Assembly: GCA_017449935.1 (NCBI GenBank)
Contig: JAFSYP010000089.1
Span: forward strand, 1 to 58,289
Length of the DNA stretch: 58,289 nt
Reading direction: 5' to 3'
DNA from: Clostridia bacterium
GTDB taxonomy: Bacteria > Bacillota > Clostridia > Oscillospirales > Acutalibacteraceae
A program made the translations under genes and the position numbers. This document shows, piece by piece, positions 17,244 to 58,289 of this stretch. Under the pieces are notes generated by a model, which had not been told where the DNA came from, searched no databases, and saw nothing but the letters and a program-made list of their open reading frames with translations. The number at the start of each line of letters is the position of its first letter. Position 1 is the first letter of the stretch.

Positions 17244-17327
17244 GCGAGAGTGGCGGAATAGGCAGACGCGCACGTTTGAGGGGCGTGTGTTCTTAACGTA
17301 CGGGTTCAAGTCCCGTCTCTCGCACCA
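17244..17327 (+). tRNA. tRNA-Leu (anticodon GAG)
   Basis: A class-II tRNA with acceptor arms GCGAGAG and CTCTCGC followed by A and an encoded CCA. The D-arm contains AATAGGCAGACGC. The anticodon stem is CACGT/GCGTG around the loop TTGAGGG, giving anticodon GAG for CUC/CUU leucine codons. A short variable arm and the T-arm CGGGTTCAAGTCCCG follow. It sits at the left edge of the accessory island, a common integration neighbourhood, but no copy of its 3' end was found to the right. Confidence 0.93.
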
Positions 17328-50510: not shown

Positions 50511-52883
50511 ATGTCAAAGACGGGAAAAAGCGATCTTACGTTCCAGCCGTTTCTGTCGCCGCTGACAGTGATGGCGTTTGCCGTCGGCACCAGCTTGGGG
50601 TGGGGTTCGCTTGTCGTTACGGCCAATACCTATCTCAGACAGGCCGGCCCTTGGGGGAGCGTCTTCGGACTGCTCGCCGGCGCCGTCGTTATGCTGCTCG
50701 TCTGCCGGAACTACCACTATGTCTCGAACAAATATCCGGACGGCGCGGGCGTGTACACATACACAAAAAGCATTTTTGGATATGACCGCGCTTTTCTTAT
50801 CTCCTGGTTTGTTTTCCTGCTCTATTTCTCGATCTTCCTGGCCAATGCGACGGCGGTCCCTCTGTTTGTCCGCTATGCTTTCGGAGACGTTTTTCGGTTC
50901 GGTTATCTGTACACGATCTTCGGCTATGAAGTCTATATCGGCGAGATACTGCTGACCGCCGCCGCCATCGGACTGACCGTTCTGCTCCTGATTCGGAGCA
51001 AGCGCGGCGTCGCAAAGCTGATGGTCGTTCTGGTGGCGCTGTTTCTGGTCGGGCTCGTCGTCTGCTTTGCCGTGGCGATGATCCGGCATTTCTCCGGCTC
51101 CGAAGGATTTGACCCGGGATTTGTACCCGACAGTCTTCCAATCGGACAAGTCGCGAAGATCGCCTGCATCTCCCCGTGGGCTTTCATCGGATTTGAAAGC
51201 GTGACGCATTCGCTCGGAGAGTTCCGTTTTTCCAAGACCAAGCTTTTCCGGCTCCTGGCCGCTTCGGTCGTCATCTCGACGGCGCTGTACATTTTTGTCA
51301 CGCTCCTTTCGGTGACGGCCTATCCGCCGAGATATGAAAACTGGCTCGCTTACATCAACGATCTGGGCAACCTTTCCGGACTGGAAGCGCTTCCGGCATT
51401 CTACGCCGCGGGGCATTACCTCGGCAACACAGGATTGGTTCTGCTCTTTGTCTCGCTGTTTGCGTTGGTTGCGACCAGTCTGATCGCCAATCTTTGGGCG
51501 CTCAGCCGGCTGATCTGCGCGGTGGCGCAGGATTCGATCCTTCCGGAAAAATTCGCCAAGCTCAACAGAAGGGGCAACCCCGCAAACGCGTTTTTGCTCG
51601 TGGCCGGACTCTCGGTTGTGCTCATTTTCCTCGGCCGCTCGGCGATCGGCTGGATCGTCGACGTCACCACGATCATGGCGACGCTTCTCTACGGCATCGT
51701 TGCCGTGGCGGCGATGAAGTGCGCGAAAGTTGACAAACGCAAAACAGACTATTTTGCCGGACTGATCGTTTTGATCGTCATGGTCTGTTTCGGAGCGGTG
51801 CTGCTTGTACCGGGCCTTCGCTCGGATTCGTTGGAAGCGGAGACATACCTTCTGTTTATACTTTGGTCTGTGCTCGGCATGGTTTTCTTCCACCGTGTCA
51901 TCGCCAAGGATCAGGCGCGCCACTTCGGCAAAGCCATCATCGTTTGGCTCTTCCTGATCTCACTGATCATCTTTCTGGGGATCATCTGGATGGAAAAGAT
52001 CGAAAAGTCGGCAAGCGAACAGATCCTCACGGCGCTTGAGAACTACCACGCCGGAAACGCGTCCGCGGAGATCCTGGCGATGAGCGAGAGCGAGTACGTG
52101 GCCGTTCTGGACCATCAGTTCGATAAAACCAGCCTGACCGGTGTTTTTGTCGTGCTCGGTCTGTTTGCGCTCTCGATCGGCGGCTTCGTCAGCAATTACT
52201 TCTCCATGCGGAAATATGAAACCCTGCTGGAAAAGGAAGTCGCAGCCAAGACCGATCACATCGTCGAAATGCAGAACAACCTCGTGATCGGCATGGCCAC
52301 CATGGTCGAAAGCCGGGATAACTCCACCGGCGGACACATCCGGCGAACCAGCGACGTGGTGCGTATTCTCGTGGATGAAATGAAAAAGGACAACGCCCTC
52401 GGCATGAGCGACAGCTTCTACGCGGATGTGATCAAGGCCGCCCCGATGCACGACCTCGGCAAGATCGCCGTCGACGACGGCATTCTGCGCAAGCCCGGCA
52501 GATTCACGCCCGAGGAATATGAGGTGATGAAGTCGCACGCGAAGGAAGGCGCGCGGATCGTCGAAGAGATCATGAAGAACACGGACGACGAACAGTTCCG
52601 GCGCATCGCCGTAAACATGGCGCATTACCACCACGAGTGGGTCAACGGGGCGGGCTACCTCGAAAAGCTGAAAGACGACGAGATCCCGCTTGAGGCGCGG
52701 ATCATGGCGATCGCGGACGTCTATGACGCGCTCGTCTCCAAGCGCGTGTATAAGGAAAAAATGACCTTCGAGGAAGCGGACAGGATCATCCTCGGCGGCA
52801 TGGGCACACAGTTTGACAGTCGCCTGCTGCCGTACTATGAAGCGGCGCGCCCGAAGCTCGAAGCCTATTACGCCGAAAGTTGA
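50511..52883 (+). CDS. APC-family amino-acid permease fused to a variant HD-GYP domain
   Basis: A 790-residue fusion. Residues 1-490 form an APC-superfamily transporter of about 12 helices (helix 1 FAVGTSLGWGSLVV, helix 6 region ISPWAFIGFESVTHSLGE). An external loop with a further helix pair (about 475-565) leads to a coiled coil and an HD-GYP domain (590-790). The HD site APMHDLGKIAVDD is intact at H647-D648. The second motif reads HHEWVNGAGYL (707-717) instead of HHExxDGxGYP, so Pro and Asp are lost. It probably senses or carries an amino acid and adjusts a cyclic dinucleotide or binds a partner. AAGAAGAGG precedes the ATG. Confidence 0.85.
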   Translation: MSKTGKSDLTFQPFLSPLTVMAFAVGTSLGWGSLVVTANTYLRQAGPWGSVFGLLAGAVVMLLVCRNYHYVSNKYPDGAGVYTYTKSIFGYDRAFLISWFVFLLYFSIFLANATAVPLFVRYAFGDVFRFGYLYTIFGYEVYIGEILLTAAAIGLTVLLLIRSKRGVAKLMVVLVALFLVGLVVCFAVAMIRHFSGSEGFDPGFVPDSLPIGQVAKIACISPWAFIGFESVTHSLGEFRFSKTKLFRLLAASVVISTALYIFVTLLSVTAYPPRYENWLAYINDLGNLSGLEALPAFYAAGHYLGNTGLVLLFVSLFALVATSLIANLWALSRLICAVAQDSILPEKFAKLNRRGNPANAFLLVAGLSVVLIFLGRSAIGWIVDVTTIMATLLYGIVAVAAMKCAKVDKRKTDYFAGLIVLIVMVCFGAVLLVPGLRSDSLEAETYLLFILWSVLGMVFFHRVIAKDQARHFGKAIIVWLFLISLIIFLGIIWMEKIEKSASEQILTALENYHAGNASAEILAMSESEYVAVLDHQFDKTSLTGVFVVLGLFALSIGGFVSNYFSMRKYETLLEKEVAAKTDHIVEMQNNLVIGMATMVESRDNSTGGHIRRTSDVVRILVDEMKKDNALGMSDSFYADVIKAAPMHDLGKIAVDDGILRKPGRFTPEEYEVMKSHAKEGARIVEEIMKNTDDEQFRRIAVNMAHYHHEWVNGAGYLEKLKDDEIPLEARIMAIADVYDALVSKRVYKEKMTFEEADRIILGGMGTQFDSRLLPYYEAARPKLEAYYAES

Positions 52884-52909: not shown

Positions 52910-52938
52910 TTGACAAAGCGATCATGCCGTGCTACAAT
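52910..52938 (+). promoter_or_regulatory. Promoter of the T-box-controlled ligase gene
   Basis: A perfect TTGACA (52910-52915), a 17-base spacer and TACAAT (52933-52938), placing the start of RNA a few bases before the T-box leader. Confidence 0.8.
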
Positions 52939-52944
52939 CAAGAA

Positions 52945-53213
52945 AATTTACAAAGGCTGTGACGAAGACTGTCGGGTTCGTCGGATTTCAGAGAGCCGGT
53001 GGATGGTGCAAACCGGTATCTGCGTTCCCAGGACACATCACTTCTGAGCCGGAGGTCCGATAGCGTTTTGCAGGTAGGCGCCTCCCGTGACTGCTGCGTT
53101 AAGGCATAGGGATTGTCTGATCCCGAAGAGCGGCGTCTTCGGACGCAAATTGAGTGGTACCGCGGATGTTTCACATTCGTCTCAATGCATGTTGAGACGG
53201 ATGTTTTTTTATT
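52945..53213 (+). promoter_or_regulatory. T-box riboswitch, specifier ATC (isoleucine)
   Basis: Stem I is readable: GGCT/AGCC (52955-52958, 53047-53050), GAAG/CTTC (52964-52967, 53041-53044) and TGTCGGG pairing with CCC and GACA (52970-52976; 53027-53035). The AGAGAG block (52990-52995) and the distal hairpin CCGGTGGATGGTGCAAACCGG are also present. The strand between GACA and CTTC reads C-ATC-A, giving specifier ATC (53037-53039). The T-box core TGGTACCGCGG is at 53155-53165, followed by a terminator (53173-53204) and TTTTTTTT. Uncharged tRNA-Ile should stabilise the antiterminator and turn on the ligase gene. Confidence 0.9.
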
Positions 53214-53240
53214 ATTCTTTTCAAAAAGGAGGTCGTTTTC

Positions 53241-55508
53241 ATGTCTACCGTCGATTCCGGAAAACTGCTGGAGGTCGCGCAGCGCATTCGCGAGATGCGG
53301 GTGATCGAGAACATTACCGAGGCCGAAATGGCCGCGAAAACGGAAGTCACGCTCGAACAGTATCTGGAGTATGAAGCCGGTCGGCTTGATTTCCCCTTTA
53401 CCTTTATCCACAAGTGCGCGCAGGCGTTCGGCGTGGGCATGACGGATCTGCTCGAAGGGCAGAGCGCGCATCTGTCGTCGTATACCGTTACCCGCAAGGG
53501 CGAGGGACATGCCACCGCCAAGGAAAACGGCATCGAGATCCAGAATCTCGCGCCCATGTTCCGCAAGAAGCTGTCCGAGCCGTACTACGTGCGCTACGCC
53601 TACGATCCCGAGCTTCAGGATAAACCGATCCACCAGACGACGCACTCCGGCCAGGAATTCGATTTCATCCTCTCCGGCCGTCTCAAGGTGCAGGTCGGCG
53701 AGCATGTGGAGTATCTGTCCGAGGGCGACAGCATCTACTACAACAGCTCCACACCGCACGGCATGATCGCCGTCGACGGACAGGACTGCCTGTTCCTGGC
53801 GGTCGTGCTGCCCGGGCAGAACGAGAGCGAGCCGGTCGTGCGCGAGGCGCTGCTGCAAACGCCGGAAGCCGACGTCAAAACGGTCGCAGACAACTTCATC
53901 GATACCGTCGAGGACGAAAAGGGCGTGCTCCGGAAGATCTCGTTCAAAAACGAGGAGAGCTTCAACTTCGGGTTCGACGTCGTGGACGTCATCGCACAGC
54001 GCACGCCGGAAAAGCTGGCGCTTCTGCACGTTTCGCAGGACAAGGTCGAGCGCCGCTTCACCTTCTCCGATATTAAGCGCGCCTCCAACCAGTGCGCCAA
54101 CTACTTCAAGGCGCTGGGCATCGGCCGCGGCGACAAGGTCATGCTCGTACTCAAGCGGCATTACCAGTTCTGGTTCGCCATGGTCGCGCTGCACAAGCTG
54201 GGCGCGATCGCCATCCCCGCCTCCAACCAGCTTCAGTCGCACGACTTTGAGTACCGCTTCCGCTCCGCGGGCGTGAGCGCCATCCTCTGCACGGCTGACG
54301 GCGACACGGCCAATCAGGTCGATCTCGCCGCCGAAACGTGTCCGGAGCTTCGGCACAGGATCATCGTGAACGGCACGCGTGAGGGCTGGCACACGTTCGA
54401 CGAGGAATATTCCCTGTACAGCACGCATTTCCGCCGCCGCGGCGATTCCCCCTGCGGCAGCGACACCTCCCTGATGTTCTTTACGTCCGGCACCACGGGC
54501 TATCCGAAGATCGCCGCGCACAGCTACAAATACGCGCTCGGTCACTACATCACCGCCAAATACTGGCACGGCGCCGACAGGGACGGCCTGCACTTCACCA
54601 TCTCCGACACCGGCTGGGGCAAGGCGCTCTGGGGCAAGCTGTACGGCCAGTGGCTGTGCGAATGCGCCGTGTTCGTCTACGATTTCGACCGCTTCCATGC
54701 CGAGGACATCCTGCCGCTGTTCGCGCAGTACAGGATCACGTCCTTCTGCGCGCCGCCGACGATGCTGCGCATGATGATCAAGCAGGATCTGTCCTCGTAC
54801 GATTTCTCCTCCGTGCGGCACATGACCACCGCAGGCGAGGCGCTCAACCCCGAGGTCTACCGCCAGTTTGAAAAAGCGACGGGACTGCATATCATGGAAG
54901 GCTTCGGCCAGACCGAAACGACTATGGTCATCGGCAACCTCATGGGCGCCAGCCATAAGATCGGCTCCATGGGCAAGGCCTCTCCCCTGTACGACATCAT
55001 GCTCATGGACCCGGACGGTAAAGAGGTCCCCGTCGGACAGACGGGCGAGATCGTCGTCAAAACATCCGACTATGTGCCCTGCGGTCTGTTCAAGGGCTAT
55101 TACCGCGATCCCGAAAAGACCGAGGAGGTCTGGCACGACGGGTATTACCACACCGGCGACGTGGCCTGGAAGGACGAAGACGGCTTCTACTGGTACGTCA
55201 GCCGCGTGGACGACGTGATCAAGTCCTCCGGATACCGCATCGGCCCGTTCGAGATCGAAAGCGTTATCATGGAGCTGCCGTACGTGCTGGAATGCGGCGT
55301 CTCCGCCGCGCCGGACGAGGTGCGCGGACAGGTCGTCAAGGCCAGCGTCGTGCTGGTCCCCGGCACAGAGGGCACGGAGGAACTGAAAAAAGAGATCCAG
55401 ACCTACGTCAAAGAGCACACCGCGCCCTACAAATACCCGCGTATCGTCGTCTTCCGCGACAGCCTGCCGAAATCCACCGGCGGCAAGATCCAGCGGAACA
55501 AGCTGTGA
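53241..55508 (+). CDS. XRE-cupin-AMP-dependent acyl-CoA synthetase fusion
   Basis: A 755-residue protein in three parts. An XRE HTH (about 8-70, MAAKTEVTLEQYLEYEAGRL) is followed by a cupin (130-195, with HSGQEF and STPHGM giving likely metal or ligand residues). The third part is a full ANL-family ligase (235-755) with TSGTTGYPK (415-423), GFGQTET, YYHTGDVAW and the catalytic Lys in GGKIQRNK. It should activate a carboxylic acid to acyl-CoA via acyl-AMP; the HTH-cupin part may sense the acid. AAGGAGG precedes the ATG. Being under an Ile-reading T-box and beside VOR genes, branched short acids such as 2-methylbutyrate are the best guess. Confidence 0.88.
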   Translation: MSTVDSGKLLEVAQRIREMRVIENITEAEMAAKTEVTLEQYLEYEAGRLDFPFTFIHKCAQAFGVGMTDLLEGQSAHLSSYTVTRKGEGHATAKENGIEIQNLAPMFRKKLSEPYYVRYAYDPELQDKPIHQTTHSGQEFDFILSGRLKVQVGEHVEYLSEGDSIYYNSSTPHGMIAVDGQDCLFLAVVLPGQNESEPVVREALLQTPEADVKTVADNFIDTVEDEKGVLRKISFKNEESFNFGFDVVDVIAQRTPEKLALLHVSQDKVERRFTFSDIKRASNQCANYFKALGIGRGDKVMLVLKRHYQFWFAMVALHKLGAIAIPASNQLQSHDFEYRFRSAGVSAILCTADGDTANQVDLAAETCPELRHRIIVNGTREGWHTFDEEYSLYSTHFRRRGDSPCGSDTSLMFFTSGTTGYPKIAAHSYKYALGHYITAKYWHGADRDGLHFTISDTGWGKALWGKLYGQWLCECAVFVYDFDRFHAEDILPLFAQYRITSFCAPPTMLRMMIKQDLSSYDFSSVRHMTTAGEALNPEVYRQFEKATGLHIMEGFGQTETTMVIGNLMGASHKIGSMGKASPLYDIMLMDPDGKEVPVGQTGEIVVKTSDYVPCGLFKGYYRDPEKTEEVWHDGYYHTGDVAWKDEDGFYWYVSRVDDVIKSSGYRIGPFEIESVIMELPYVLECGVSAAPDEVRGQVVKASVVLVPGTEGTEELKKEIQTYVKEHTAPYKYPRIVVFRDSLPKSTGGKIQRNKL

Positions 55509-55560
55509 TCGCTTCCCCGCAATCTTCCCCACAATCCCTTTATTCTTCAAACTAAAATCA

Positions 55561-55589
55561 TTGACATCCCCCGCGACTTGTGCTATACT
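55561..55589 (+). promoter_or_regulatory. Promoter of the MinD-like/vor gene set
   Basis: A perfect TTGACA (55561-55566), a 17-base spacer and TATACT (55584-55589), about 90 bases before the ATPase gene. Thus these genes can be transcribed apart from the T-box leader, although no terminator separates them from the ligase. Confidence 0.75.
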
Positions 55590-55677
55590 ATCGTGTGGTA
55601 AATTCCCGGATGCACCGCATCCGTCTGGCGGGCAAGTCGCTCTCGGACGGGTGCTTTTTCACGAACACAGGTGGTTT

Positions 55678-56340
55678 ATGGATTTTAAACGCATCACTCT
55701 GCTCGCCGGCCATTACGGCAGCGGAAAGACCAACATCGCCGTCAACCTCGCCATGCTGCTGCGGCAGACGCGCATGCGCGTGGCGATCGCGGATCTGGAC
55801 ATCGTCAATCCCTATTTCCGCACCAAGGACAGCCAGTATTCCCTGGAGCAGGCGGGCATCCGCTTTATTTGTTCGGAATACGCCAATTCCAATGTGGACA
55901 TCCCCGCCCTGCCGCAGACGCTCTACGCCGTCACGGACGACCGGGAGCTGACCTGCGTGCTGGACATCGGCGGCGACGACCGCGGCGCGCTCGCGCTCGG
56001 CAGACTCGCGCCGGCGATCGCCGAGGAAAACGACTTTGAGATGCTTTTCGTCGTCAACTTCTACCGTCCGCTGACGCAGACGCCGCAGGATGCGCTGGAC
56101 GTGATGCGCGAGATCGAAGCTGCCGGTCATCTGCCCTTCACGGGCGTCGTCAACAATTCAAACCTCGGCGACGAAACGACGCCGGAAACGGTGCTGCGTA
56201 CGGCACAGCGTACGGCGGAGCTTTGCGCGCTCAGCGGCCTGCCTCTCGTGTTCACGAGCGTGCACCGTCCCCTCCTGCCCGCGCTGGAGGGCAAATTACC
56301 CAATCTGATCGGGCTTGATCTGCAAGCCAAAATACGATAA
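55678..56340 (+). CDS. MinD/ParA-like P-loop ATPase
   Basis: A 220-residue ATPase with P-loop GHYGSGKT (11-18), the switch region [15 protein letters not shown] and [14 protein letters not shown]. It belongs to the small SIMIBI-type proteins often found next to 2-oxoacid:ferredoxin oxidoreductase genes, where a role in cluster or cofactor delivery is suspected but not shown. The ATG at 55678 follows AGGTGG; upstream in-frame codons lie over the promoter. It is 13 bases before the ferredoxin gene. Confidence 0.8.
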
Positions 56341-56353
56341 AAGGAGAATGGTT

Positions 56354-56560
56354 ATGGCAAAACTGACGTTCAAAACCGAGATCTGCAAGGGCTGCGGTCT
56401 GTGTATCAACGCTTGCCCGAAAGGCGTTCTGGAGCTGAATAAAGACAAGCTCAACGGCAAGGGACATCACCCTGTCGAAGCTGCCTATCCCGACAAATGC
56501 ATCGGCTGCGCTTTCTGCGCGACGATGTGTCCCGATTGCGTGATTACAGTAGAAAGGTGA
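56354..56560 (+). CDS. vorD: Ferredoxin-type subunit of 2-oxoacid:ferredoxin oxidoreductase
   Basis: A 68-residue protein with two 4Fe-4S sites, [12 protein letters not shown] and [12 protein letters not shown], with a small insertion between them. It acts as the delta (electron-carrying) subunit for the oxidoreductase encoded next. AAAGGAGA lies about seven bases before ATG 56354, which is preferred over ATG 56348. The alpha-subunit gene starts 10 bases after its stop. Confidence 0.88.
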
Positions 56561-56570
56561 GTGAAAAAGA

Positions 56571-57629
56571 ATGGCTGACAAAGTATTGATGAAGGGCAAC
56601 GAAGCCATCGCGGAAGCCGCTATCCTCGCCGGCTGCCGCCATTACTTCGGCTACCCCATCACCCCCCAGACGGAGATCGCCGCCTATATGGCCAAGCGTA
56701 TGCCCAAGATCGGCGGTACGTTCCTGCAGGCGGAAAGTGAGATCGCCGCCATCAACATGGTCTACGGCTGCGCCTCCGCGGGCAAACGCGCAATGACCTC
56801 CTCCTCCAGCCCCGGCGTCTCGCTCAAGGGCGAAGGCATTTCCTATATGGCGGGTTCCGATCTGCCCGGTCTGATCGTCAACGTACAGCGCGGCGGTCCC
56901 GGCCTCGGCGGCATCCAGCCTTCCCAGTCCGACTACTTCCAGTCCACCCGCGGCGGCGGACACGGCGACTACCATCTGATCGTGCTCGCGCCCGCTTCCG
57001 TGCAGGAAATGGCGGATATGACCGTCAAGGGCTTCGATCTTGCGGACAAGTACCGTATGCCCGTCATGCTGCTGGCAGACGGCACCATGGGACAGATGAT
57101 GGAGCCCGTGTCGCTTGACCTTTCCGTCAGCGAAGCGCCCGAAAAGCCGTGGGCGACCACCGGCACGAAGCTCGCGCGCAAGCATAACATCATCAACTCC
57201 CTTTCCCTCGTTCCGGAAGAGCTGGAGAGGCTCAACAACGAGCGCTACGCGAAGTACGACCTCGTAAAGAAAAACGAGGTGCTGTACGAGGAGTTCCTGA
57301 CGGACGACGCTGAGATCTGCATCGTGGCGTTCGGCATCGCAGCCAGAGTCTCCAAAAACGCCGTCGTCACCGCGCGCAAAAACGGCGTCAAGGTCGGTCT
57401 GATCCGTCCCATCACGCTCTGGCCGTTCCCGGAAGAAGTGATCCGCAAAGCCGCCGATCACGTCCGGCGCTTCATCTCCGTGGAGCTGTCCATGGGACAG
57501 ATGATCGAGGACGTGCGTCTGGCCGTCAACGGCAAAGCGCCCGTGGAGCTGTGCTACCGCGTGGGCGGCATGATCCCCACGCCCGACCAGGTCCTGGATG
57601 CAATCGAAAACGGAGGTGCGAAAGAATGA
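56571..57629 (+). CDS. vorB: 2-oxoacid:ferredoxin oxidoreductase alpha subunit (branched-chain, VorB type)
   Basis: A 352-residue subunit carrying the pyrimidine-binding and transketolase C-terminal domains. LMKGNEAIAEAAILAGCRHYFGYPITPQTEI, AESEIAAINMVYGCASAGKRAMTSSSSPG and GLGGIQPSQSDYFQSTRGGGHGDYHL are typical of the VOR/KOR branch. With the TPP subunit it interconverts 2-oxoacids and acyl-CoA plus CO2 using ferredoxin. The branched-chain call rests on similarity to proteins annotated VorB and on the neighbouring Ile T-box; a 2-oxoglutarate enzyme remains possible. ATGA overlap with the next gene. Confidence 0.88.
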   Translation: MADKVLMKGNEAIAEAAILAGCRHYFGYPITPQTEIAAYMAKRMPKIGGTFLQAESEIAAINMVYGCASAGKRAMTSSSSPGVSLKGEGISYMAGSDLPGLIVNVQRGGPGLGGIQPSQSDYFQSTRGGGHGDYHLIVLAPASVQEMADMTVKGFDLADKYRMPVMLLADGTMGQMMEPVSLDLSVSEAPEKPWATTGTKLARKHNIINSLSLVPEELERLNNERYAKYDLVKKNEVLYEEFLTDDAEICIVAFGIAARVSKNAVVTARKNGVKVGLIRPITLWPFPEEVIRKAADHVRRFISVELSMGQMIEDVRLAVNGKAPVELCYRVGGMIPTPDQVLDAIENGGAKE

Positions 57630-58289
57630 TCGTATTTGAGAAACCCCATGCGCTCACAGATGCGCCCATGCATTACTGCCCCGGCTGCACGCACGGCATC
57701 GTCCACCGTCTGGTGGCGGAAGCCATCGACGCGCTGGGCATCGAAGGCAAGACGGTCGGCATCGCGCCGGTCGGCTGCTCCGTGATGGCCTACAACTATT
57801 TCGCCTGCGACATGATCGAAGCCGCGCACGGCCGCGCGCCGGCTGTGGCGACGGGCGTCAAGCGTTCCGATCCCGACGGTCTGATCGTGTTCACCTACCA
57901 GGGCGACGGCGATCTCGCGTCCATCGGTATGGCGGAGACGGTCCACGCCGCCGCCAGAAACGAAAACATCACCATCATCTTCATCAACAACGCCATTTAC
58001 GGCATGACCGGCGGCCAGATGGCGCCCACGTCCCTGCCCGGCCAGGTCACGCAGACCTCGCCCTACGGCCGCGACGTCAAGGCGTGCGGCTATCCGGTGC
58101 GCGTGTGCGAAATGCTCGCCACGCTCGACGGTCCCGAATATCTCGAACGCGTCGCCGTCAACAACATCAAGAACATCAAGGCGGCCGGCAAAGCGATCCG
58201 CAAGGCGTTCCAGAACCAGATCGACGGCAAGGGCTTCTCGCTGATCGAGGTTATTTCGAGCTGCCCGACCAACTGGGGCATGACGCCGC
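57626..58289 (+). CDS. vorA: 2-oxoacid:ferredoxin oxidoreductase TPP-binding (beta) subunit, cut by window end
   Basis: The first 221 residues of the thiamine-diphosphate subunit. YCPGCTHGIVHR near the N-terminus, GIAPVGCSVM, and the TPP motif YQGDGDLASIG...IIFINNAIYGMTGGQ are present. It starts inside the stop of the alpha gene (ATGA) and runs off the window at the stretch SSCPTNWGMTP. A gamma subunit gene is expected next. Together with vorD and vorB it forms the catalytic complex. Confidence 0.9.
   Translation, partial: MIVFEKPHALTDAPMHYCPGCTHGIVHRLVAEAIDALGIEGKTVGIAPVGCSVMAYNYFACDMIEAAHGRAPAVATGVKRSDPDGLIVFTYQGDGDLASIGMAETVHAAARNENITIIFINNAIYGMTGGQMAPTSLPGQVTQTSPYGRDVKACGYPVRVCEMLATLDGPEYLERVAVNNIKNIKAAGKAIRKAFQNQIDGKGFSLIEVISSCPTNWGMTP

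Follow-up and report, generated by a model that had tools for sequence, protein, structure and literature searches.

T-box leaders respond to uncharged tRNA, which causes antitermination, so that the genes behind them are switched on by starvation for the cognate amino acid. The described leaders of this family (RF00230) precede ilv-leu, aminoacyl-tRNA synthetase and transporter genes. Here we analyze a T-box leader in a 58,289-nucleotide contig (JAFSYP010000089.1, assembly GCA_017449935.1) from a Clostridia bacterium of the Acutalibacteraceae, together with the gene behind it, ligI, which encodes an AMP-forming acyl-CoA ligase fusion. The window is this entire contig (C50), and the assembly comprises 2.95 Mb in 129 contigs and is 87% complete. 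With its described relatives the leader shares a Stem I with specifier, an AGAGAG region, a UGGN antiterminator, an intrinsic terminator and a tRNA identity that is read from a codon; unlike them, it stands before a predicted volatile-acid ligase, and two paralogous enzymes carry different specifiers.

The use of branched short-chain acids (isoacids) for amino acid synthesis by rumen and gut microbes is already known as physiology. For rumen microbes and methanogens, passages of one paper describe the conversion of 2-methylbutyrate to isoleucine and of isobutyrate to valine (PMC7356843), and passages of another that of 2-methylbutyrate to isoleucine and of isovalerate to leucine (PMC10658910). 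The same precursor-product pairs recur here, with candidate genes, linkage and control where the earlier accounts give physiology. Among enzymes, Macs of Methanosarcina acetivorans prefers 2-methylbutyrate, as stated in part of PMC10455477, and MbcS of Staphylococcus aureus activates both 2-methylbutyrate and isobutyrate with a Km below 10 uM for each and serves lipid synthesis, according to sections of PMC10026030, whose main text does not mention a T-box. Among the papers listed by searches of one open-access library, judged from listings and the starts of abstracts and with older T-box surveys not covered, we recognized no account of T-box control of such ligases.

Our proposal, which we consider likely, is a tRNA-gated pathway in which branched-chain volatile acids, short fatty acids that other microbes leave behind, are scavenged and built up into branched-chain amino acids; the locus would be its isoleucine arm. 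During isoleucine shortage, uncharged tRNA-Ile would pair with the AUC specifier and with the antiterminator, and transcription would read through. LigI would then convert 2-methylbutyrate to 2-methylbutyryl-CoA, a 2-oxoacid:ferredoxin oxidoreductase of the VOR type would draw on reduced ferredoxin to carboxylate this reductively to 3-methyl-2-oxopentanoate, and transamination by a branched-chain aminotransferase would yield isoleucine. A sister ligase, LigV, under a valine T-box would activate isobutyrate, with flux to valine through the same VOR and aminotransferase.

An isoleucine-reading T-box precedes ligI

The leader region contains the following elements:

52910..52938, + strand: sigma-70-type promoter of the T-box/ligase unit (TTGACA-17-TACAAT, 11/12)
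52950..53187, + strand: T-box leader RNA (RF00230, 94.9 bits; covariation in 35 leaders)
53037..53039, + strand: specifier codon AUC (Ile), followed by A and CUUCUGAGC (RF00230 alignment; rule checked on T-boxes of the same genome)
53150..53165, + strand: antiterminator T-box sequence TTGAGTGGTACCGCGG with the UGGN bulge for the tRNA acceptor end (RF00230 alignment; conserved in 35 leaders)
53173..53204, + strand: intrinsic terminator, predicted competitor of the antiterminator (pairs conserved among 35 leaders)

The covariance match exceeds the gathering score (94.9 against 93 bits; E 1.4e-19), and an antiterminator with UGGN and a competing terminator lie ahead of the gene, as expected of a T-box. 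Across 35 aligned leaders, 31 of the 51 predicted pairs include at least one sequence that is changed on both sides with pairing kept. Specifiers were read by a fixed rule: the codon, one base, then nine nucleotides ending in GAGC or GAGG. The assembly contains seven T-boxes at E <=0.001, three of them above the Rfam cut-off; one reads isoleucine and one valine, and the rule returns the codon expected for each of the other five, namely UUC for pheS, ACC for thrS, UGC for cysES, UGG for a trpB-like gene and CUC for a leuA-like gene, names read from the translations with a family search for leuA only. A valS leader in the genome of one relative (L075) also reads as expected, GUC. Because the same rule gives the expected codons on these T-boxes, the isoleucine reading is well founded, and the leader is predicted to respond to tRNA-Ile in vivo. 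A misread specifier or a decayed T-box might be suspected from a score barely above the cut-off; we find this hardly credible, since the rule works on T-boxes of the same genome that precede recognizable genes, and the leader shows strong conservation as well as covariation.

The valine T-box lies on another contig (C119), where it scores 89.9 bits, just below the RF00230 cut-off, and carries the specifier GUA. It precedes ligV, which encodes a second HTH-cupin-ligase 69% identical to LigI.

Both ligases resemble Macs

The ligase gene and the codons discussed below are:

53241..55508, + strand: ligI, HTH-cupin-AMP-forming acyl-CoA ligase fusion of 755 aa, a predicted 2-methylbutyryl-CoA synthetase (domain searches, Macs alignment)
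54618..54632, + strand: codons 460-464 of ligI (GKALW); G460 and L463 are the best Ile/Val separators, and W464 aligns with Macs Trp259

Domain searches divide LigI into an XRE-type HTH (below the Pfam cut-off), a Cupin_2 domain and a complete ligase (AMP-binding and AMP-binding_C). The nearest solved relative of both LigI and LigV is Macs (3etc), at E 7e-183 and 8e-184, respectively. Homology extends across the whole ligase region of LigI, the YHTGD motif is present, W464 corresponds to the pocket residue Trp259, and Gly255 is likewise conserved; the activity of LigI is predicted from this likeness. By contrast, the HTH-cupin part has no match in Macs, and it perhaps acts as an added sensor of acid or product. 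We know of no T-box associated with Macs. Among NCBIfam models the best match is MbcS (NF047394), with scores of 417 (P0001) and 420.5 (P0006) against an equivalog cut-off of 850.

These results bear out what a first reading of the window from its letters alone (the sequence-only reading) had claimed, that an isoleucine-reading T-box with specifier ATC stands before an acyl-CoA ligase fusion; the RF00230 covariance search it had called for places AUC in the specifier.

The specifier codon follows ligase clade and a pocket-side residue

To place the two ligases among their relatives, we pooled 248 unique ligase genes. They came from the best 80 of at least 575 relatives' loci, mostly metagenome-assembled genomes of Clostridia (Oscillospiraceae, Ruminococcus and others) with a few Erysipelotrichaceae-type loci, and from a same-family sample of 150 genomes, 91 of which had a ligase match at E <=1e-100, with all but 8 of the listed matches taken in. 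Many record titles of the 80 loci name rumen, colon or faeces. Leaders were detected with an nhmmer profile built from 92 leaders previously motif-read as ATC, GTA or GTC, and the Rfam model was used for divergent leaders and split-gene cases. A simple-motif search for specifiers was dropped, as it overlooked leaders that lack AGAGAG or a clean GAGC.

A readable leader precedes 169 of the 248 genes, with AUC in 101 (Ile) and GUA or GUC in 68 (Val; 60 and 8, respectively). No other codon was seen among these 169, as read with a profile that was trained on Ile and Val leaders and from which other specificities or structures may escape. The remaining 79 comprise 5 cut genes and 74 with no T-box within ~750 bp. 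In 44 of these 74 the match begins only past residue 150, and many of the 44 are split genes with the HTH-cupin part in a separate upstream gene; in 40 further upstream stretches a T-box was found in 11, every one with AUC. Short spacing suggests how other leaderless genes are transcribed: some ligV genes begin 41-84 bp after ligI (L049, L055, L058, L085) and some ligI genes 15-63 bp after a TIM-barrel-ligase gene described below (L055, L058, L064, L070, L085), and these are therefore probably read from another leader. Twenty more distant or cut loci yielded one partial T-box, and for this reason we do not claim T-box control for the distant ligase clade (32 genes).

The specifier tracks the ligase sequence. 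On trees of residues 237-755, 237-470, 400-560 and 560-640, the Ile and Val labels change 3, 4, 2 and 5 times, respectively, against minima of 43-45 in 200 shuffles of the labels for each tree. Residues 640-755 behave differently, with 26 changes (shuffled minimum 46), an apparent sign of gene conversion between tandem paralogs; for this reason trees of the C-terminal part were rejected as a guide to clade. The two ligases of the genome, ligI (53241-55508) and its paralog at L014:6780-9065 (- strand), are nearly identical in their C-terminal parts, likewise a sign of such conversion.

Among the compared columns of the ligase domain, residue 460 separates the two groups best: it is Gly in 100 of 101 Ile-controlled and Ala in all 68 Val-controlled ligases. 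Residue 463 comes second (Leu in 94/101 of the former; Met, Ala or Thr in 66/68 of the latter), and Trp464 is present in 169/169. By alignment, with YHTGD at 431-435 of Macs, residues 460, 463 and 464 correspond to Macs Gly255, Val258 and Trp259, which puts residue 460 four positions before the pocket tryptophan. A bulkier pocket-side chain in the Val form would fit a smaller acid, and isobutyrate is one carbon shorter. A third ligase class has Met460 (L165, L168, L170, L172, L174, L175, L177, L178, L184, L187-L189, L193 and others); in several of its members the HTH-cupin part is a separate gene, and an AUC leader lies upstream of three. With Met460 beside AUC in split genes and Ala460 in genes without a read T-box, residue 460 was rejected as a universal code.

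The two ligases could instead be equally broad, with the two T-boxes forming an OR gate for general branched-chain starvation. S. aureus MbcS does accept both acids at low Km (PMC10026030, in the sections cited above), some ligV genes follow ligI at less than 100 bp without a T-box of their own (for example L049), and the 26 label changes across residues 640-755 make the C-termini look homogenized between paralogs. We nevertheless regard an OR gate as unlikely, because the part of the protein in which the two forms remain different takes in the side of the acyl pocket, where Gly/Ala460 and Leu/Met463 follow the specifier, and because three Erysipelotrichaceae-type loci have a separate and unlike Val leader before ligV.

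At these three loci (L068, L069, L075), the Ile leader before ligI scores 130-141 bits at best against other leaders of the set. The GUC leader of ligV matches them at 37 bits in L069 and not at all in L075, and for L068 none of the set's leaders appears among the ten matches listed (tenth, 43.7 bits). Apart from one another, the three Val leaders match best a single leader of the L075 genome (88.7, 88.7 and 117 bits), which precedes valS and has specifier GUC, in a comparison that covered 30 of the 58 T-boxes of the three genomes. Since this ligV leader resembles a valS leader rather than the other Val leaders, a Val T-box seems to have been recruited before ligV twice, independently. Such a second recruitment is the strongest argument that the valine reading matters.

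ATPase and VOR genes follow the ligases

Downstream of ligI, the window continues to the contig end as follows:

55561..55589, + strand: promoter-like site before the ATPase-vor genes (TTGACA-17-TATACT, 11/12; similar site in congener G087)
55638..55653, + strand: terminator-like hairpin with T run, between the promoter-like site and the ATPase gene (partly conserved in G087)
55678..56340, + strand: CbiA/ParA-like P-loop ATPase (kept in relatives, where it separates the ligases from vor)
56354..56560, + strand: vorD, 2x[4Fe-4S] ferredoxin, VOR delta subunit (domain search)
56571..57629, + strand: 2-oxoacid:ferredoxin oxidoreductase alpha subunit (NCBIfam VorB above cut-off)
57626..58289, + strand: 2-oxoacid:ferredoxin oxidoreductase beta subunit, truncated at the contig end (domain and NCBIfam searches)

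The alpha subunit belongs to the VorB subfamily (NF005507, 548 against a cut-off of 399), and the listed NCBIfam matches of the ferredoxin and the cut beta gene all fall below their own cut-offs. The vor cluster of the congener G087 extends further, to gamma (below the NCBIfam cut-off) and to ilvE, the branched-chain aminotransferase gene. Activity on branched-chain 2-oxoacids is predicted, with 2-oxoglutarate or other 2-oxoacids as alternatives.

The usual order in relatives is ligI, ligV, ATPase, vorD, vor alpha, vor beta and vor gamma. Where at least 2.5 kb follow the last ligase match (63 loci), the ATPase gene is present in 53 and vor alpha in 52; across all 80 loci, many of which end earlier, vor gamma is found in 42 and ilvE in 20. 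Together, ligases, VOR and IlvE complete a series from acid to acyl-CoA, 2-oxoacid and amino acid. The gap between ligase and ATPase genes, measured in the 61 loci with the ATPase downstream, is at most 60 bp in 38, 61-500 bp in 10 and larger in 13, and in the 38 short-gap loci vor is therefore probably co-transcribed with the ligase.

The ferredoxin and VOR-type genes that the sequence-only reading had placed after the ligase are indeed there, with the ATPase gene in between, and the separate vor promoter it had posited corresponds to the promoter-like site at 55561-55589. Its view that only the ligase is surely under the T-box agrees with such a site in both window and congener. Terminator-like hairpins in this region are no more numerous than in shuffled sequence; the hairpin within 55590-55677, only partly conserved in G087, is possibly a leader attenuator for ATPase-vor.

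VOR-type enzymes run oxidatively in amino acid fermenters, a direction that would suit a catabolic cluster in which isoleucine and valine are transaminated, VOR oxidizes the products to acyl-CoA, and the acids are finally released. This we consider highly improbable: a T-box would then switch on degradation of an amino acid just when it is in short supply, the reaction of an AMP-forming ligase costs ATP, and the canonical biosynthetic genes were not found in the same assembly (ilvA and cimA matches below cut-off). In the biosynthetic pathway proposed here, VOR would instead work in the carboxylating direction.

Just 5' of the T-box, 50511-52883 (+ strand) encodes a protein of 790 aa, whose N-terminus is that of an amino acid permease and whose C-terminal domain is of the HD type, HD-GYP-like by reading. 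The sole tRNA gene in the window is a tRNA-Leu (GAG) at 17244-17327 (+ strand).

Canonical isoleucine and valine genes are scarce in carriers of both leaders

Neither ilvC nor ilvD was found in the 87%-complete assembly, in searches that detected 14 of 14 controls for each; matches to ilvA and cimA were weak and all below cut-off. Both ilvC and ilvD were likewise not found in the congener G087 (95% complete). Across the 150-genome sample, ilvC occurs in 3 of the 23 genomes with both leaders, and 18 of these 23 have none of ilvA, cimA, ilvC and ilvD above cut-off. With the Ile leader only (n=33), ilvC is present in 17, a complete isoleucine route in 12, and ilvC plus ilvD with neither ilvA nor cimA in 4. 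Of the 94 genomes with no leader read, 65 have ilvC and 61 a complete isoleucine route; they divide into 59 that have no ligase match (38 with ilvC) and 35 that have one with no leader read (27 with ilvC). This pattern is as expected if LigI alone replaces the isoleucine branch and LigI and LigV together make ilvCD dispensable.

The same counts bear on a different role, in which the ligases, like S. aureus MbcS, would supply branched acyl-CoA to prime the synthesis of branched-chain fatty acids, with the T-boxes sensing low levels of branched-chain amino acids as the usual source of such primers. MbcS is the best NCBIfam match, and the cited sections of PMC10026030 describe activation of the same two acids for lipids. 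However, the ligase scores stay below the MbcS cut-off, the genes adjoin VOR and, in 20 of 80 loci, an aminotransferase, 18 of the 23 both-leader genomes lack the four canonical genes above cut-off, and mixed primers need no separate control by isoleucine and valine. A primer function is thus improbable beside the proposed synthesis of amino acids.

Discussion

Several observations weigh against the pathway as proposed. It is predicted from genes and sequences, and an MbcS identity for LigI was rejected on a score far under the curated cut-off. Seventeen fused-group genes lack a readable leader of their own: 14 have no T-box and 3 are cut, and four leaderless members (L077, L079, L090, L122) are without the explanation that short spacing offers. 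Most of the Gly/Ala split at residue 460 goes back to one duplication, so that the 169 genes do not count as that many independent cases; one gene pairs an AUC leader with Ala460 (L023), the same residue is found in distant ligases for which no T-box was read, and three split-gene ligases with AUC leaders have Met460. The aminotransferase is known from the congener and other relatives only, the genome itself not having been searched for it. In an assembly that is 87% complete, absence of ilv genes is by itself weak evidence, and the 95%-complete congener agrees. None of the four canonical genes is found in 21 of the 94 genomes without a read leader either, so their loss is not specific, and a complete canonical isoleucine route is kept in 15 of 56 genomes with T-box ligases (3/23 with both leaders, 12/33 with Ile only). 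Fisher tests on ilvC separate both-leader genomes from the 94 (p 1.6e-6), the 59 (p 4.7e-5) and the Ile-only genomes (p 0.004) and give p 0.09 for Ile-only against the 94, values that are optimistic because the genomes are related. Overall, many gut and rumen carriers seem to have lost the canonical pathway, and some keep it.

The salvage route to isoleucine put forward by the sequence-only reading gains support from the Macs-like ligase, from the failure to find ilvC and ilvD, and from the linkage of ligase, VOR and aminotransferase genes, with 2-methylbutyrate as the probable substrate and carboxylation as the probable direction of VOR. As a single route it missed the valine-reading sister ligase, the pairing of leader and enzyme, and a possible leucine arm.

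Evidence for this third arm comes from another contig of the assembly (C120; L015:3253-7148, - strand; also L002), where a CUC leader precedes a LeuA-like gene. Directly behind that gene lies one for a third AMP-forming ligase, fused to a TIM barrel that resembles xylose isomerase. This pair adjoins ligI in several relatives' loci. By the simple rule its specifier reads CUC in L096, L116, L121 and L123 and CUG in L050; the leaders of L068 and L069 were unreadable by that rule, and other loci showed no antiterminator. The aconitase family is represented in the assembly by one gene, which scores above the aconitase cut-off and just above the cut-off for a mixed aconitase/isopropylmalate dehydratase subfamily. 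The Iso_dh family likewise has one gene there; its best match, isocitrate dehydrogenase, is below cut-off. leuCD and perhaps leuB thus seem to be missing from the 87%-complete assembly; with a single gene of each family, the LeuA-like protein may lack its usual partners and may not be an ordinary LeuA. Our guess for the third ligase is isovalerate. A three-armed system, with an Ile leader and LigI for 2-methylbutyrate, a Val leader and LigV for isobutyrate, a Leu leader and the TIM-barrel-ligase for (perhaps) isovalerate, and a shared VOR and IlvE, is a tentative extension that we hold somewhat less probable than its absence.

If the proposed pathway is true, it would provide a concrete gene cluster, and a marker, for isoacid dependence in uncultured genomes. 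The joint change of an RNA codon and a residue in an enzyme pocket would, in addition, amount to a natural experiment. Should the three-armed reading hold as well, the leader codon would predict the substrate of a ligase whose specificity is unassigned.

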